NCBI GenBank assembly: GCA_015660965.1
Contig: JACTVG010000002.1
Span: forward strand, 124,001-188,000
DNA: 64,000 nt
DNA from: Methanoregulaceae archaeon
Lineage (GTDB): Archaea; Halobacteriota; Methanomicrobia; Methanomicrobiales; Methanospirillaceae
Direction of reading: 5' to 3'
Under the pieces are notes generated by a model that saw only the letters and a program-made list of their open reading frames with translations, was not told the DNA's origin and did not search any database. Positions 52,060 to 60,053 of the stretch are shown here, in pieces. The position numbers and the translations under genes were made by a program. The first letter of the stretch is position 1; every line of letters begins with the position of its first letter.

Positions 52060-53514
52060 ATGGCTATCCATTTTGAGAGTCTTGATAGTGATATTGCAGG
52101 GCGAATTGGAAAACTCACTGTTGGAAATAAAACCATTAGAACACCGGCACTGCTTCCAGTTATCAATCCGCATCTTCAGATCATTAAACCGTCAGAGATG
52201 AAAACGATGGGAATTGAGGCACTCATCACAAATGCATATATAATCAACCAGAGCCTGCGGTATCATGACCAGGCATTAAACGAAGGATTACATGCCATGC
52301 TTGACTTTGATGGCGTAATCATGACAGACTCGGGTTCCTTTCAGCTGTCAGTATATGGAGATGTATCAGTAACAAATCTCGAGACGCTAACCTTCCAAAA
52401 AGATATCAAAAGTGATATTTGGGTTCCACTTGATATACCCAGTCCTCCAACTGCAGATAAAGTATCAGCCGAACGTGATCTTCTAATAACTATTGATAGA
52501 CTTCGCGAAGCAATGAATACGTTTGGAGATGAAGCACCAGTTGCTGGACCGATACAGGGGGGCATTTATCTTGATTTGCGTGAACGTGCAGGAAAAGAAT
52601 TAGGTGCATTGGGTTTTTCGTTTTGCCCTATAGGTGCAGTTGTTCCTCTCATGGAAGCATACCGGTACCAGGATCTTGTTAGAGTCGTTATGGCAGTAAA
52701 AAAGAATCTTCCACTCGCCACTTGTGTTCACCTTTTCGGTGCGGGACATCCGGCTATGTTTGCGCTTGCAACTGCCATGGGATGTGATCTTTTTGATTCG
52801 GCTGCTTACGCTCTTTATGCCAAAGAAGGCCGGTATCTCACTGTTCATGGAAGCTATAAGTTAGATGAACTCACGGAACTACCTTGCTCATGCAATGTTT
52901 GCCGATCACATTCTAAAGAAGATCTGAACACATCCGATCAGCGGGAGAGGTTGCTCGCTCTTCACAATTTGAACATTACTCTTGCTGAAATTTGTCGTAT
53001 TCGACAGGCTATTATTGAAGGTACTCTGTGGGAACTTGTCGACGAAAGGTGCCGAAGCCACCCAAAGCTTTTGTCGGGATATCAAGAACTATTAAATTAT
53101 TCAAATGAATTGGAAACGCACGATCGCATATCAAAGCGTAGATTCTTCTATCGGGGTGATGAGAGTTGTCTCCGAACAGAAGTGATAAGGTATCAGAAAA
53201 CCCTTTCACGCCTTAGACTTGGCGACAATGCCCTTGTTTCATTCAACGGTCGAACACGACAAGGATTCGATAATACACTCCTTTTTAAACCCCCGTTCGG
53301 CCCATATCCTCGGGAACTAAAAGAGACATTCCCTATCGGACAGAGCGAGATTCCGGAGTGGGATGAAACCATGGTTCGACAAGGTTGTATCGGTATACGT
53401 AACCTTATCAATACCCATCTCAAAAGTCGGGTTGCTGTCTCTTGTAACCCACGATGGATTCCCATTGTAAAATCTGAATTGCCAGATATCGAGGTATTTA
53501 ATGATCCAGATTGA
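52060..53514 (+). CDS. tgtA: Archaeosine tRNA-guanine transglycosylase (ArcTGT)
   Basis: The 484-residue enzyme swaps guanine-15 of tRNA for preQ0, the first step in archaeosine synthesis. The TIM barrel shows the nucleophile region MTDSGSFQLSVYGD, VAGPIQGGIYLDLRERA, and the zinc-binding PCSCNVCRSH with its later His. The C-terminal ~130 residues form part of the tRNA-recognition arm; the PUA domain is not obvious here, but one is present at the end of the following gene. The stop overlaps the arcS start by 14 nt, so the two are coupled. Confidence 0.93.
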   Translation: MAIHFESLDSDIAGRIGKLTVGNKTIRTPALLPVINPHLQIIKPSEMKTMGIEALITNAYIINQSLRYHDQALNEGLHAMLDFDGVIMTDSGSFQLSVYGDVSVTNLETLTFQKDIKSDIWVPLDIPSPPTADKVSAERDLLITIDRLREAMNTFGDEAPVAGPIQGGIYLDLRERAGKELGALGFSFCPIGAVVPLMEAYRYQDLVRVVMAVKKNLPLATCVHLFGAGHPAMFALATAMGCDLFDSAAYALYAKEGRYLTVHGSYKLDELTELPCSCNVCRSHSKEDLNTSDQRERLLALHNLNITLAEICRIRQAIIEGTLWELVDERCRSHPKLLSGYQELLNYSNELETHDRISKRRFFYRGDESCLRTEVIRYQKTLSRLRLGDNALVSFNGRTRQGFDNTLLFKPPFGPYPRELKETFPIGQSEIPEWDETMVRQGCIGIRNLINTHLKSRVAVSCNPRWIPIVKSELPDIEVFNDPD

Positions 53515-55132
53515 TATCCGAAAACGAGATGGCCTCGCACGTTCAGGTACCTTTGTTATAAACAAGGTCTCAATAAGGACTCCCGCTGTTCTTGATACTG
53601 TCGACCTTTTCCCATCATTAAAGACAAAAAATGGGACAAATATACCTCTAGCAGCTGGATCAGAATTTACAAAAAGTTACTATGTAAAAAACAACCATCA
53701 ACCCATCACCATCCATCCGGCTCTTGAAAACCCCGCACTAAGTGGTGACTGTGTGATGGTTGACAACTGGCACACAGTTCTTTATAACCCTCGAAACTAC
53801 GTGATGTGGCTAATTGACCTTAAAGAAAAAACACCTCCTGATACGCTTTGGTATGTTCCTGCTACAGCTCTTCCTTCCAATGTTCATATTCTCTGTTATA
53901 GTGGTTTTGATATCTTCGACTTCCGAGCTGTCGATCTAAAATCTGCTCAAGGAATTTTCTGTTTACCAGAAGGAGAATTTCCAAAGGAGTATTTAAAGTT
54001 GGGATTATGCACCTGTGATGGTTGTAGAAATGAAAATCTGAAACAACACAACCGGATTGAGCTTCAATGTGAGATTGAGCTGATTAATAGGTTCATTGAG
54101 GCAGGACAACTAAGGGAACTCGTAGAATCTCGAAGTCGAATGCATGCCCAGCATGTCGCCATCCTTCGTCATCTCGATAATCAATATAATTTTATGGAGA
54201 AAAGGGTTCCAGTATCTCGAAGTTGTGTGATGCAAGTAAACAGCGGGGAGTCAATAAACCGGGTTGAGATTCGAAGGTTTGCCGAACGTGTTGTTACAAG
54301 ATATATTCCTCCTAAAACAGATGTTGCAGTGCTATTGCCGTGCTCAGCAAAGAAACCATATTCTCTTTCAAAAAGTCACCGTAAATTCCAGACTGCAATT
54401 GCAAACCGTGCGCATGAATTGATTATTAGTTCACCACTTGGAATTGTGCCTCGCGAAGTGGAGACAATCTATCCTGCAGGTCACTATGATGTCCCGGTTA
54501 CAGGATATTGGGATGCAGAGGAATGTTCACTAATCGCGGATATTATTGCTCGTTACTTTATACGTAATAGATACCGCCGTATAATTGCTCATCTCGATGG
54601 AGGAGCATTAAAGGTTGTAGAAATTGCTGCAGAAAAATGCAATTTAACACTTGAATATTCGTGTAAGGAGAATCCAACTAGCAATGCATCTTTAAATAAA
54701 CTTGATCAGGCTCTTGACGGAGAACGTAGAATAAAAGATGACAGACTTCACGGTATGTGTTCCTACCAATTTGGTATAGATATTAATACCAAAGGATTCA
54801 CTTTACGTGGACGATTTCCAGAAATTTATTATAGTAAAGAGAATTTACAATATTTTTCTATCAATACTGCAACAGGAATGCTGCGTCCAACCTTTGATGG
54901 TTGGAAACTAATCCCAAAAGGCTACCGAGTTTTAATTGATGATTTTACCCCAGAAGGAGATATACTCGTTCCAGGTATAATTAAGGCCGATCCAGAGATC
55001 CGTGAAGGAGATGAAGTTCTAATTATTGGCCTAAAAATTGAGGCAACAGGAAAAGCCGCAATGTCAGAGGATGAAATGATGCGTTCAAAGCGTGGCGTTG
55101 CTGTACGCGTGCGTAAAATAAAGAAGCTCTAG
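53501..55132 (+). CDS. arcS: Archaeosine synthase ArcS (TgtA2), with C-terminal PUA domain
   Basis: The 543-residue protein resembles TgtA in its first half but lacks the transglycosylase nucleophile motif. It has the ArcS core motif PCSAKKPYSLSKSH (near residue 278) and ends in a PUA RNA-binding domain (residues ~475-543, EGDILVPGIIKADPEIREGD). ArcS adds the amine to preQ0-15 on tRNA to complete archaeosine. Translational overlap with tgtA places consecutive pathway enzymes in one transcript. Zinc-type cysteines (GLCTCDGC) are retained. Confidence 0.92.
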   Translation: MIQIDIRKRDGLARSGTFVINKVSIRTPAVLDTVDLFPSLKTKNGTNIPLAAGSEFTKSYYVKNNHQPITIHPALENPALSGDCVMVDNWHTVLYNPRNYVMWLIDLKEKTPPDTLWYVPATALPSNVHILCYSGFDIFDFRAVDLKSAQGIFCLPEGEFPKEYLKLGLCTCDGCRNENLKQHNRIELQCEIELINRFIEAGQLRELVESRSRMHAQHVAILRHLDNQYNFMEKRVPVSRSCVMQVNSGESINRVEIRRFAERVVTRYIPPKTDVAVLLPCSAKKPYSLSKSHRKFQTAIANRAHELIISSPLGIVPREVETIYPAGHYDVPVTGYWDAEECSLIADIIARYFIRNRYRRIIAHLDGGALKVVEIAAEKCNLTLEYSCKENPTSNASLNKLDQALDGERRIKDDRLHGMCSYQFGIDINTKGFTLRGRFPEIYYSKENLQYFSINTATGMLRPTFDGWKLIPKGYRVLIDDFTPEGDILVPGIIKADPEIREGDEVLIIGLKIEATGKAAMSEDEMMRSKRGVAVRVRKIKKL

Positions 55133-55370
55133 ATGCAACAGGTACGGTATATCGTCTGGTTCTTTGAAGACTGGCATCTTGTTTCAGATAGAGGCAATCA
55201 CACAGATTGCAGAGAAAATGTACCAGCTCTGGGGGCGTCGGTGCGGGTTCGAAAGGTATTGAAAGAGTGATATCGCAGTATTATAGCACAGAGGTTGCAA
55301 CGTAGGAGTGATTAACTTGTACAGGGTGAAACAGACTGTAATCTCGGTCGGTTCGAAAGGCCCGGCAGCC

Positions 55371-56513
55371 ATGCCGGTCGTGGTCGCCGTTCCAAAGGAG
55401 CTGGATCCAGGGGAACAGCGTGTGGCGACCGTACCGGAGGTCGTCCAGAAACTCACGATGTCGGGTTACGAGGTCAGGATCGAGCACGACGCGGGTGCGA
55501 GTGCGTACTACCCCGACGATCTCTTCACGGCCGCCGGTGCGAGGATCGCGTCCAGCCGGACCGACCTGTTGAACGGCGCCCAGATCGTGTTGCGCGTCCA
55601 GCCCCCGACAGTCGCCGAGGTCGATCAGCTCGCCGAGGGCACGATCGTCATCGGGTTCATGAACGCGATGAACAACCTCGAGGCCGTCGCCCAGATGCGC
55701 GACCGGAAGGTCACCGCCTTCGCCCTCGAGCTCGTTCCACGAATCACCCGCGCTCAGAGTATGGATGCGCTTAGTTCCCAGGCGACGGCCGGCGGGTACA
55801 TGGCTGCCATTTTGGGCGCTGAAAACTGCCCGAAGTTCCTCCCGATGCTGACGACGGCCGCAGGCACGATACGACCGGCAACAGTGCTCATATTAGGTGC
55901 CGGCGTCGCCGGCCTCATGGCAATCGCCACGGCAAAGCGGCTCGGCGCCATCGTCGAGGCCTACGACGTCCGACGCGCCGCAGGCGAACAGGTCCGGAGC
56001 CTCGGCGCCAAGTTTCTCGAGCTCGAGATCAATGCCGAAGGCCAGGGCGGCTATGCCCGCGAGCTCACGCCCGAGGAGAAGGCGAAGGAGCAGCAGATGG
56101 TTTCTGCCGCTGTCGCACGGGCCGACATCGTCATCACGACGGCCAACATCCCCGGTCGGAAGGCCCCCCTCCTCATTACGAAGGAGACCGTCGCGAGGAT
56201 GCGAGCGGGCGCTGTCATTGTCGATCTGGCCGCCGAGTCAGGGGGAAATTGCGAGCTGACCCAGCCTGGCAAGACCGTCCGGGAGCACGGTGTCAAGATC
56301 CTGGGGCCGCAGAACCTCCCGGCCCGGGTGCCGTTCCACTCGAGCCAGATGTACGCGAAAAACCTCCAGTCGTTTCTAGCGCTCCTCGTCAACAAAGACG
56401 GGGCGATCGTGAAGGAGTTCAGCGATGAGATCCTAGCCGCGAGCCTCTTGGTTCACGCGGGCGAGGTGCGCCACGGGCCAACGCGCGACCTCCTGAGCGG
56501 AGGGAAGCCATGA
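55371..56513 (+). CDS. pntAA: NAD(P) transhydrogenase subunit alpha part 1 (PntAA)
   Basis: The protein of about 380 residues carries the NAD(H)-binding domain I of proton-translocating transhydrogenase: VAVPKELDPGEQRVA at the start and the Rossmann loop VLILGAGVAGLMAIATAKRL. ATG 55371 gives the normal start of the family; a GTG at 55308 would add 21 residues encoded in A+T-richer DNA. Composition is strikingly G+C-rich, with G or C at most third codon positions, unlike genes on either side, which indicates transfer. It forms the three-subunit operon pntAA-pntAB-pntB, with 4-nt and 1-nt junctions. Confidence 0.93.
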   Translation: MPVVVAVPKELDPGEQRVATVPEVVQKLTMSGYEVRIEHDAGASAYYPDDLFTAAGARIASSRTDLLNGAQIVLRVQPPTVAEVDQLAEGTIVIGFMNAMNNLEAVAQMRDRKVTAFALELVPRITRAQSMDALSSQATAGGYMAAILGAENCPKFLPMLTTAAGTIRPATVLILGAGVAGLMAIATAKRLGAIVEAYDVRRAAGEQVRSLGAKFLELEINAEGQGGYARELTPEEKAKEQQMVSAAVARADIVITTANIPGRKAPLLITKETVARMRAGAVIVDLAAESGGNCELTQPGKTVREHGVKILGPQNLPARVPFHSSQMYAKNLQSFLALLVNKDGAIVKEFSDEILAASLLVHAGEVRHGPTRDLLSGGKP

Positions 56514-56821
56514 CCGACGTGACCACGCTCTGGACCGCCGTCTACATCGCGATGCTGGCCGCGTTCACCGGCTACGTCGTCATAAGCCGGGTCCCCGTCA
56601 TCCTCCACACGCCGCTGATGAGCGGCTCGAACTTCGTCCACGGGATCGTGCTTGTCGGCGCGATGATTGCACTCGGCCTCGCCACGACGACCCTAGAGCA
56701 GATCATCGGGTTCATTGCGGTCATTCTCGGCGCGGCGAACGTCACCGGCGGCTACATCGTCACGGAGCGGATCCTCCAGATGTTCGACCGCAGCGGGAAG
56801 AAGCCCGGAAAGGGGATGTAA
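56510..56821 (+). CDS. pntAB: NAD(P) transhydrogenase subunit alpha part 2 (PntAB)
   Basis: The 103-residue membrane subunit has three transmembrane helices (about residues 7-27, 38-58 and 63-83) and a short basic tail (RSGKKPGKGM). Together with the helices of PntB it forms the proton channel. The ATG overlaps the pntAA stop by 4 nt. The split alpha subunit is the form found in many bacteria, distinct from the fused E. coli PntA. Same G+C-rich composition as its neighbours. Confidence 0.93.
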   Translation: MTDVTTLWTAVYIAMLAAFTGYVVISRVPVILHTPLMSGSNFVHGIVLVGAMIALGLATTTLEQIIGFIAVILGAANVTGGYIVTERILQMFDRSGKKPGKGM

Positions 56822-56822
56822 G

Positions 56823-58208
56823 ATGGTCGACCTCTCCTACGCGATCGACCCGGTCTACATTGCGACAATCTTTTTCTTCATCGTCGGCCTGCAGCGGATG
56901 AGCCACCCGCTCACTGCTCGGAGCGGGATTGTCTGGGCCGGCGCCGCGATGTTGATCGCGACGTTCGTCACGTTCCTTACCCCGAACCTCACCAACTTCA
57001 CCCTGATAGCATTTGCGATCGTCATCGGCGGGGGCTTCGGCTACATCGCGGCGAAACGCGTCGCGATGACCGATATGCCCCAGATGGTCGCGTTCTACAA
57101 TAGCATGGGCGGAGGCGCAGCGGCCGGGATCTCGGCTGTCGCGCTCCTCAGCACCACCACCGCCACTACCAGTTCCCTCGCTGTCGTTGGTGGCCTCATT
57201 GGAGCGATTTCGTTTGCAGGGAGCCTCATCGCGTTCCTGAAGCTCCAGGGCTGGATGCGGCAGCGGCCGATCACCTTCAAGGGTCAGCAGGTCGTCAACA
57301 TGACGGTCCTGACCCTCGCCATCGTGTCCGGTGTGCTCGTCCTCTGGCACCTGTCCTGGATCCCGCTCACCATCGCCATGTATCTCCCGCTGTTCTTCGG
57401 CCTCTCGCTCGGGTTCGGGTTCCTTATGACACTCCCGATCGGTGGAGCCGACATGCCTGTCGTGATCTCGATGTACAATGCCTTCACCGGGCTCGCCGTC
57501 GCGCTCGACGGGTTCTCGTTCGCGACTCCCAACTATGCAATGGTCGTCGCGGGCGTCATTGTCGGCGCCGCAGGTTCGCTGCTCACGCTCCAGATGGCGC
57601 GGGCGATGAACCGCTCGATCTCGAACGTCTTCTTCGGCGCTTTCGGCGCGACGGAGGAGAAAAGGGTGCAGATCCAGGGCAGCATGAAGTCGATCGAGGC
57701 TGACGACGTCGCGGTCATGCTCGCCTACGCGAACAAGGTGATCATTGCCCCAGGCTACGGCATGGCGGTCGCCCAGGCCCAGCAGAAGGTTAAGGAGCTG
57801 ACCGACCTGCTCGAAAGCCAGAACGTCCAAGTGAAGTTCGCGATCCACCCGGTCGCCGGGCGGATGCCCGGGCACATGAACGTCCTGCTCGCCGAGGCAG
57901 GGGTCGCCTACGACCACCTCTTCGACCGGGACGAGGTGAACCCGGAGTTCCCAAGCACCGACGTCGTCCTCGTCATTGGGGCCAACGACGTCGTCAACCC
58001 GGCGGCGCACAGGCAGGGCAGCCCGCTCTTCGGCATGCCAATCCTTGATGTCGAACAGGCGAAAAACGTCATCGTCCTTAAGCGCGGCCAGGGGAAGGGC
58101 TTCGCCGGGATCGAGAACGACCTGCTCTACCGGGACAACACGCGGATGCTCTACGGCGACGCGCAGGAGACTGTCGGGAAGCTCGTGCAAGCCCTCAAGA
58201 AGTTATAA
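56823..58208 (+). CDS. pntB: NAD(P) transhydrogenase subunit beta (PntB)
   Basis: The 461-residue subunit has about eight or nine transmembrane helices (to ~residue 260) and the NADP(H)-binding domain III (~residues 285-461), with PGYGMAVAQAQQKV, VLVIGANDVVNPAA and VIVLKRGQGKGFAGIEN. The complex couples the proton gradient to reduce NADP+ with NADH. ATG 56823 is 1 nt after the pntAB stop; longer upstream readings are out-of-family. The G+C-rich island ends just after this gene, near 58250, where a fragment of a different gene begins. Confidence 0.95.
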   Translation: MVDLSYAIDPVYIATIFFFIVGLQRMSHPLTARSGIVWAGAAMLIATFVTFLTPNLTNFTLIAFAIVIGGGFGYIAAKRVAMTDMPQMVAFYNSMGGGAAAGISAVALLSTTTATTSSLAVVGGLIGAISFAGSLIAFLKLQGWMRQRPITFKGQQVVNMTVLTLAIVSGVLVLWHLSWIPLTIAMYLPLFFGLSLGFGFLMTLPIGGADMPVVISMYNAFTGLAVALDGFSFATPNYAMVVAGVIVGAAGSLLTLQMARAMNRSISNVFFGAFGATEEKRVQIQGSMKSIEADDVAVMLAYANKVIIAPGYGMAVAQAQQKVKELTDLLESQNVQVKFAIHPVAGRMPGHMNVLLAEAGVAYDHLFDRDEVNPEFPSTDVVLVIGANDVVNPAAHRQGSPLFGMPILDVEQAKNVIVLKRGQGKGFAGIENDLLYRDNTRMLYGDAQETVGKLVQALKKL

Positions 58209-58241
58209 GGCGCCCACGGAGATCCGCCAGGCCGATGTTAG

Positions 58242-58432
58242 GCCCTGCCAGATGTTTTTATTGAAGCTATTGGTCAAGGTCCCAATCCTCTTCTGTTAAA
58301 AGAAATCCCCAATTTAGCAACAGCACATAGAGGAAATGTTATAATTAACGAAGGAATGTTGCAACAGTAATTCTAGCAATGGGAACGGCTAAGAAAGCTG
58401 CTCTAGCAATTGATCGGATGTTACAAGAGTGA
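58242..58432 (+). pseudogene. 3' remnant of an NADPH-dependent glutamate synthase small subunit (gltA/gltD-like) gene
   Basis: Just after pntB, the A+T-rich strand reads DVFIEAIGQGPNPLLLKEIP followed by NLATAHRGNVIINEG up to a stop at 58368-58370. In a second frame it continues ATVILAMGTAKKAALAIDRM and ends LQE at TGA 58432. Both match the C-terminal end of glutamate synthase small subunits (AIGxGPNPL, then GNIVVD and ATVILAMGxGxxAAxAID). The GVFAGGD segment between them is missing, so there is a deletion plus frameshift. No 5' part is seen before the pnt genes. The composition is host-like. Confidence 0.75.
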
Positions 58433-58457
58433 TGTAATTTATTCCCCTTTTCTAGCG

Positions 58458-60053
58458 TCATGATATAATTGGTTCCAACTCCTTATTTTCAACGTTAAGA
58501 ACAAGATTTTTTCCAAAGACTTTGAAAAAAGCTTTCATTTCACCTTCAACTCCCCAAAGTTCGAGCTGGCAGTCTCCGCGAGCAACGACTTCTAGATGAA
58601 CAGTTTCTTTCTCAAATTCGGTAAACTGAACACTATGTACTAATGCTGCATGACTTCGGTCAAGGCTTTCTGCCAAACGAAGGAATGTAGACAAGATTCG
58701 AATCATTTCCCGCTCTGGCGGATCAAGATCCATCATTTCAGGGGTCTTTTTCGTCGGTTTTCTTTTACGATGGAAACGAGCAATATTTGCCATTATTGAA
58801 ATTTCTTTATGGTCAAAGCCAAGCAACTCTGCGTTAGTTATTATATAATAAGAATGAGCATGGTGGTTTGTATAGGATATAAACGATCCAATATCATGAA
58901 GAAAAGTGGCGTATTTGAGTAGCTCGCGATCATTGTCTCCAAAAGTATGAAGTTTTTGTTTTTTAGCTGAATCAAAAAGTTGAAGGGCAAGACTGGTTAC
59001 TGTGCGTGCATGTGCTTCATTAATTCCACAAGAACGCCCTAGTTGTAGAACACTGCGTTCACGTGTTGAGAGTTCTCCAAAGAGGGGAAAATCATCCATT
59101 CTAGATAAATAATCAGCTAATAATCCATCTTGCAAACCTCTTGTCGTTACGTTAATAGTATCAATATCTAGTTCTTTCATGATGGTGTCAATAATTGCCA
59201 CTCCAGCGATAATAATATCCGCCCTTTCAGGGTTAATTCCTGGGATTTTTCGGCGTGATTCAAGAGGAAGGGAGCACAGGAGTTCGGCAACCTTTTTTAC
59301 ATCTTTATGACTAAGTGAACCATTAGATGATGAACTATTCTGGTGAATTGATCGTTGAGCAATCTCGGCTAGATTGATTATTGTGCCAGAACTCCCGATA
59401 GCAACATCAAATTTTATTTTTTTAACTTTTTGAACAATATGAATAATTGAGTTTTTAACATGCTGTTGGAGCTTTTTGTATCTCTCTGATGAAACCGGAC
59501 CTGTTTCATCCCTTTTAAAGTAATGATTTGTGAGCCTAATCGCCCCTAGTTTCAAACTTTCAAGAAAACTATATTGCCGTTCTCCACCGATAGCAATTTC
59601 GGTACTCCCACCACCGATATCAATAAAAATTGCTTTTTTATCGCCAAGATGGATGCCACTAGCAACCCCCATGTAAATTAATCGAGCTTCTTCTCGACCA
59701 GATATAACCCTGACGTCAATTTGTGCTTCATGACGGAGTCGATTTAATAACATGTTTTGATTTTCAGCTTCACGTGTTGCTGATGTGGCAACTGCGACAA
59801 ATTCATCGCATTCAAACGTCCGTGCTAAATCGATAAATTTTTTGCAAACAGTAACCGCTCGATCCATTGCATCTGGAAGGATCTCATCCTCTTCGAACTC
59901 CCCCTCCCCTAATCGAACTTGTTGTTTCTGCCGAGAAAGAATTGTAAATGAATGATTAGGATTGAATCTCACAACAAGCAAACGTATGGAATTTGTTCCA
60001 ATGTCAATAAAACTGACAACACGACTTTTTAAATTTGATATATTCTTTGTCAC
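58458..60053 (-). CDS. ppx: Ppx/GppA exopolyphosphatase with C-terminal HD domain
   Basis: The 531-residue protein has an ASKHA-fold Ppx/GppA module (residues ~10-310) with SFIDIGTNSIRLLVVRF, a conserved VATSATREAEN loop and the phosphate loop IDIGGGSTEIAIGGE, and then an HD-type domain with FLHDIGSFISYTNHHAHS (~residue 390). It hydrolyses polyphosphate or (p)ppGpp pentaphosphate. The start overlaps the stop of the CHAD gene by 4 nt. It is the last gene of the ppk1-CHAD-ppx operon and converges with the glutamate-synthase remnant. Confidence 0.93.
   Translation of the reverse strand: MTKNISNLKSRVVSFIDIGTNSIRLLVVRFNPNHSFTILSRQKQQVRLGEGEFEEDEILPDAMDRAVTVCKKFIDLARTFECDEFVAVATSATREAENQNMLLNRLRHEAQIDVRVISGREEARLIYMGVASGIHLGDKKAIFIDIGGGSTEIAIGGERQYSFLESLKLGAIRLTNHYFKRDETGPVSSERYKKLQQHVKNSIIHIVQKVKKIKFDVAIGSSGTIINLAEIAQRSIHQNSSSSNGSLSHKDVKKVAELLCSLPLESRRKIPGINPERADIIIAGVAIIDTIMKELDIDTINVTTRGLQDGLLADYLSRMDDFPLFGELSTRERSVLQLGRSCGINEAHARTVTSLALQLFDSAKKQKLHTFGDNDRELLKYATFLHDIGSFISYTNHHAHSYYIITNAELLGFDHKEISIMANIARFHRKRKPTKKTPEMMDLDPPEREMIRILSTFLRLAESLDRSHAALVHSVQFTEFEKETVHLEVVARGDCQLELWGVEGEMKAFFKVFGKNLVLNVENKELEPIIS

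Follow-up and report, generated by a model that had tools for sequence, protein, structure and literature searches.

Probable replacement in place of an nfnAB operon by a membrane transhydrogenase operon in a methanogenic archaeon

In a 64,000-nucleotide stretch of the genome of a Methanoregulaceae archaeon (hereafter the window), a foreign pnt operon has very probably replaced, in place, an unrelated ferredoxin-linked nfnA-nfnB operon, of which the fragment at the right edge is the tail. The evidence comprises occupation of the same site, the presence of both ends of the old operon, jumps in GC and in DNA identity at the edges, and mutual exclusion of the two systems across the order Methanomicrobiales. 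As in gene displacement in situ, the old site is occupied, the old genes are absent elsewhere in the genome and remnants lie at the edges; the case for replacement in place is strong.

The interval between arcS2 and ppx

Domain and structure-match searches found domain I, the 4TM subunit and the PNTB subunit of the window pnt all at full length (Table 1). The GC3 of the pnt genes is 0.81–0.92, against 0.27–0.30 in arcS2 and ppx. DNA identity to a relative (G002) rises from 0.65–0.79 across arcS2 to 0.89–0.96 from about position 55150, the import being about 93% identical. At fourfold sites, the identity of pnt to G001, G002, G005 and G006 is 0.83–0.86, compared with 0.21–0.40 for arcS, ppx, ppk and EF-2, a contrast to which the window genome's own shift in GC contributes. 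Measured against that shift, the import is recent, the GC3 of pnt not having adapted to that of its neighbours. Window genes at 53501–60053 are much more A+T-rich (GC3 0.27–0.30) than the genes of relatives; such a background exposes foreign DNA, and further imports may be easy to spot.

Table 1. Features of the arcS2–ppx interval, in window positions
Feature	Position	Strand	Basis or remark
arcS2, archaeosine synthase-like (DUF5591 + PUA), bordering the old and the new operon on the left	53501..55132	+	Pfam
nfnA start, remnant (LFQIEAITQIAEKMYQLW)	55179..55232	+	18 codons; comparison with relatives
Second, foreign arcS2 C-terminus (ASVRVRKVLKE, then stop)	55235..55270	+	Extra arcS tails also in other spacers
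pntAA, NAD-binding subunit (alternative start ATG 55371)	55308..56513	+	Profile match, Pfam, structure matches
pntAB, membrane subunit	56510..56821	+	Profile match, Pfam
pntB, membrane and NADP-binding subunit	56823..58208	+	Profile match, Pfam
Foreign DNA 3' of pntB, present in relatives too	58209..58249	+	Sequence comparison, identity and GC jumps
nfnB ('gltA') remnant, piece 1	58250..58360	+	Host-like GC; profile match, comparison with relatives
nfnB remnant, piece 2, other frame, up to the original stop codon	58361..58432	+	Profile match
ppx (Ppx/GppA plus HD domain), bordering on the right	58458..60053	-	Pfam

At the right junction, the frame from 58242 translates as ALPDVFIEAIGQGPNPLLLKEIPNLATAHRGNVIINEGMLQQ and that from 58361 as ATVILAMGTAKKAALAIDRMLQE, each up to a stop codon. 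The initial annotation had recognised here the last codons of a gltA-like gene, surviving in two frames where the foreign composition stops, and both profile search and shuffling confirm the homology. Taken singly, the pieces give weak matches to gltA-type models (best E 0.0023 and 7.5e-4); joined as one protein, they reach E 1.5e-7, in an alignment that runs into the final positions of the model. Piece 1 scores 52.0 bits when compared with the GltA of relatives, and 780 shuffled right flanks went no higher than 30.0. The two pieces align at 68% and 85% identity, and about 17–19 codons are missing between them, in addition to a frame shift. With a GC of 0.40, the remnant is host-like in composition and is a trace of the host's own operon, its start abutting the end of the GC-rich DNA. 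The junction was earlier placed at about 58245; positions 58209–58249 are similar to DNA downstream of pntB in relatives, so the native part of nfnB begins at about 58250 and not at 58242, and the first few codons of the latter frame are, judging by this similarity, imported DNA. A genome search revealed no second nfnB/gltA copy above the cut-off in the window genome, which is 99.88% complete.

At the left junction, the nfnA start remnant scores 28.9 bits, whereas 655 scored shuffles of left spacers peak at 25.0. The earlier statement that no 5' part precedes pntAA therefore holds for gltA but fails for the operon. The 150-base bin with this remnant has a DNA identity of 0.93 to G002, and since the stretch of high identity, which opens at about 55150, takes in the nfnA piece, that piece was probably carried in as part of the cassette. 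It is directly followed by the foreign arcS2 tail, which differs from the host's own ending (VRVRKIKKL, then stop). Of 38 spacers, 6 have an extra arcS tail ahead of pntAA, where shuffling predicts 0.21, and G053 has an arcS2 end ahead of pntAA without a whole arcS2 there. No arcS was found near three pnt loci of Thermoplasmata (L131, L135, L139). Taken together, the link between arcS and pnt seems to have formed inside methanogens, with arcS ends travelling with the cassette.

The same chromosomal site in relatives carries the presumed older state. Seven of them (G025, G176, G177, G189, G201, G202, G204) have arcS2-nfnA-gltA followed by ppx and no pnt. An intact gltA at this locus had been predicted, and together with the lack of a second copy in the window genome it supports the proposal that the insertion replaced a gltA-like gene. 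The arcS2 gene lies directly 5' of nfnA in all 23 nfn loci in which it is in reach (24 examined, from six genera); in an order-wide set of 30 loci it does so in 23. The order arcS2-nfnA-nfnB is therefore probably ancestral. The seven misses are one locus of family f6, G008, G024 (with just 302 bases upstream) and every one of the four gltA loci of family f5 (L058, L070, L072, L075), where nfnAB lies away from arcS2. The 46 pnt records come from 44 genomes, and arcS2 is directly 5' of pntAA in 36 of the 38 with the pntAA start in reach. The exceptions, G053 and G058, whose pnt is not behind arcS, are counter-examples to the site rule. Spacers between arcS2 and pntAA measure 1015 bp in L227 (G175) and 903 bp in L216 (G195), compared with 0–432 bp in the others.

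Distribution and history of the two systems in Methanomicrobiales

Among 232 genomes of Methanomicrobiales, 44 carry pnt and 171 gltA/nfnB, whereas none has both intact and 17 have neither. The first count leaves out of 45 PntB matches that of G177, which was judged spurious (27% identity, E 4e-4, full GltA present); the second leaves out of 173 GltA matches (E 1e-25 or better) the fragments in two pnt genomes, G003 and G005, and includes some partial genes in drafts. Derived from the same tallies, the 135 better genomes comprise 23 with pnt, 109 with gltA/nfnB and 3 with neither. A Fisher test on the exclusion gives 9e-34; because the genomes are related, a test on independent pairs is fairer. 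All seven such pairs are opposite in state (p 0.016), a test that partly restates the exclusion, as it omits rows with neither system and derives the nfn label by inverting the pnt one; G022 counts as nfn on the strength of an incomplete gene that meets the end of a contig. Such strict either/or occupancy of one site by unrelated enzymes suggests that Nfn and Pnt have the same job and may be incompatible. Their functional equivalence is inferred from this exclusion and from known activities, that of Nfn being described in PMC5861303 and PMC6405883.

Two broken genes were also observed. The gltA/nfnB fragment of G003 (L096:6553–7188) contains a stop codon and lies away from arcS and pnt; a reading frame that looks transposase-like, as judged from the ORF alone, is found about 1 kb away. 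In G183, which has no intact nfnB, pntB (L219) is itself broken and lacks residues ~281–336.

Remnants of nfn flank pnt in G000, G002, G004, G005 and G063. The nfnA start scores 100 bits in G002, 40 in G004 and 101 in G063, and the nfnB end 216 bits in G005; that of G004 is a weak match of 20 bits and not the best in the remnant scan. Weak remnants in G006 (right), G030 (left) and G183 (right) are possible at most, and other matches that beat their own shuffles (left in G021 and G191; right in G003, G030, G225 and G227) were not counted. The left scan covered 35 of 36 spacers, that of G225 (17 bp) being too short, and most pnt loci are without a recognisable nfn remnant. No convincing pnt remnant was found in 24 nfn loci, which, set beside the nfn remnants flanking pnt, points to the direction from nfn to pnt. 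Some candidates were rejected. Matches of 15–17 nfnA-like residues before pntAA in several genomes of genus g5, which beat their own 20 shuffles in G174, G180, G183, G184, G193 and G208, were judged to be probably the pntAA start. The best pnt-like match of G179 (37.4 bits, 24% identity, 206 columns, many gaps) was taken for an unrelated membrane protein.

Trees of EF-2 over 1000 bootstraps require 7 to 9 changes between the PNT and NFN states, hence at least seven within one family. These trees hold 70 of the 88 genomes with a match (108 searched), the 18 left out including 10 from genus g12; G181 and G200, with neither system, were not counted, leaving 68. In genus g5, nfn genomes are nested among pnt genomes, and the host tree gives no direction. 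In a quick pnt tree (SH-aLRT support only), which omits G001 and G006 as below the coverage cut, the Methanomicrobiales sequences group in a single clade that lies among those of Thermoplasmata and has a Thermoplasmata MAG as its sister. The genus of the window is split within it, and both this split and the contrast at fourfold sites conflict with the host history. Thus, pnt has spread horizontally within the order, often with a donor arcS tail.

Could nfnAB have decayed first for other reasons, with pnt later landing in an empty site by chance? Such a course would accommodate the deletions inside the remnants and the genomes with neither system; however, the native nfnB piece is well conserved and abuts foreign DNA, the loci examined yielded no decayed nfn without pnt, and the independent pairs are all opposite, making this account improbable. 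A decayed remnant in a pnt-less relative, earlier named as evidence against replacement, was found in none of 61 relatives, the partial match in G022 ending at a contig edge. Even less probable is an assembly chimera that misjoined a GC-rich contig piece from a different methanogen to the window genome. The high identity of the import to G002, beside the 65–79% of arcS2, and the draft state of the assembly (170 contigs, 3.61% estimated contamination) are compatible with it. Nevertheless, both junctions lie on one 260-kb contig, the nfnB piece has its own internal deletion, the nearly complete genome holds no other nfnB, and the same kind of replacement occurs in separate assemblies (G002, G004, G005, G063), including the single-contig genome G004 with both remnants, its nfnB end being weak.

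Identity of the lost operon

The remnant had been assigned to an NADPH-dependent glutamate synthase, but its relatives indicate otherwise. All 30 gltA loci of relatives have nfnA directly 5' of gltA. For the proteins of one relative (G025), standing in for the remnant itself, the best solved-structure matches are 5jca_S for NfnA (3.5e-88) and 4ylf_B for 'GltA' (5.6e-152); the latter protein scores 510 bits against Thermotoga maritima NfnB and 278 against the glutamate synthase small chain. The NfnB of G025 contains an N-terminal 4Fe-4S domain (Fer4_20) and the cysteine motif CGRVCPQEVQCE, and the matching region is lost from the window remnant. With nfnA as neighbour and NfnAB-like best matches, the lost unit is, on these comparisons, nfnAB, a soluble transhydrogenase, and the new one pntAA-AB-B, a membrane transhydrogenase. 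Although the family model TIGR01316 bears the name glutamate synthase 'gltA', a true glutamate synthase gene is very unlikely and was dropped, given that nfnA and no large subunit adjoins gltA, that the NfnB match is the stronger, and that an intact glutamate synthase FMN domain is kept on another contig of the window genome (C4:249290–250378, 472 bits). The idea that one NADPH-linked function was exchanged for another survives in altered form, as the swap is of a transhydrogenase for an unrelated transhydrogenase and recurs across the order. Hence, 'gltA' annotations in Methanomicrobiales probably denote nfnB. The window genome also retains npdG, the gene for an F420-dependent NADP reductase.

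Archaeal Nfn has been reported from Methanomicrobia, Thermococci and Thermoprotei, and its function in methanogens is described as unstudied in a review (PMC6405883). A haloarchaeal pnt of presumed lateral origin has also been described (PMC3102087). A partial literature search found no published account of an nfn/pnt exchange. The balancing of NADH, NADPH and ferredoxin in methanogens is poorly known, and closely related strains with each state are available for comparison.

Proposed course of the swap and comparison with known systems

The ancestor of this Methanoregula-like archaeon very probably carried nfnA-nfnB behind arcS. A GC-rich pntAA-pntAB-pntB cassette, imported from a relative, then very probably displaced nfnA and most of nfnB, sparing the last nfnB codons, which later lost an internal stretch. 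As far as the sequences suggest, recombination could have run through the arcS/nfnA end shared on the left side and, on the right side, through short stretches of matching sequence. Pnt would thereby have taken over NADH/NADPH exchange, presumably shifting it from a soluble ferredoxin-coupled enzyme to a membrane enzyme coupled to the proton gradient. More tentatively, the arcS slot may be a standing exchange slot: pnt might have made a single entry into Methanomicrobiales, from a Thermoplasmata-like source, and then moved between species via the arcS anchor, removing nfnAB each time. Selection might act against having both, because an unwanted cycle would then couple ferredoxin to the proton gradient. 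If this were true, the order would amount to a natural experiment, with repeated swaps between electron-bifurcating and proton-driven transhydrogenation.

Pnt is a proton-translocating membrane transhydrogenase. Like the PntAA-PntAB-PntB of Thermus thermophilus (structures 4IZH and 4O9U), the window pnt has three full-length subunits with all expected domains; it differs in residing in a methanogen, at an nfn site, with unadapted GC. The relatives' adjacent subunits resemble the electron-bifurcating NfnAB of T. maritima (4YLF/4YRY) and Pyrococcus furiosus NfnI (5JCA) from end to end, and the CGRVCPQEVQCE motif is kept in a relative's NfnB, whereas the window holds just 18 nfnA codons and the nfnB end. 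The small chain of NADPH glutamate synthase (GltD) is a homologous flavoprotein with the annotation name in common, but it is the weaker match and the gltA of relatives has no large subunit as neighbour. As in gene displacement in situ by horizontal transfer, foreign genes stand at the site of a resident operon whose ends are left; what sets this case apart is that neither sequence nor mechanism relates the two operons and that several genera show the swap at the same site.
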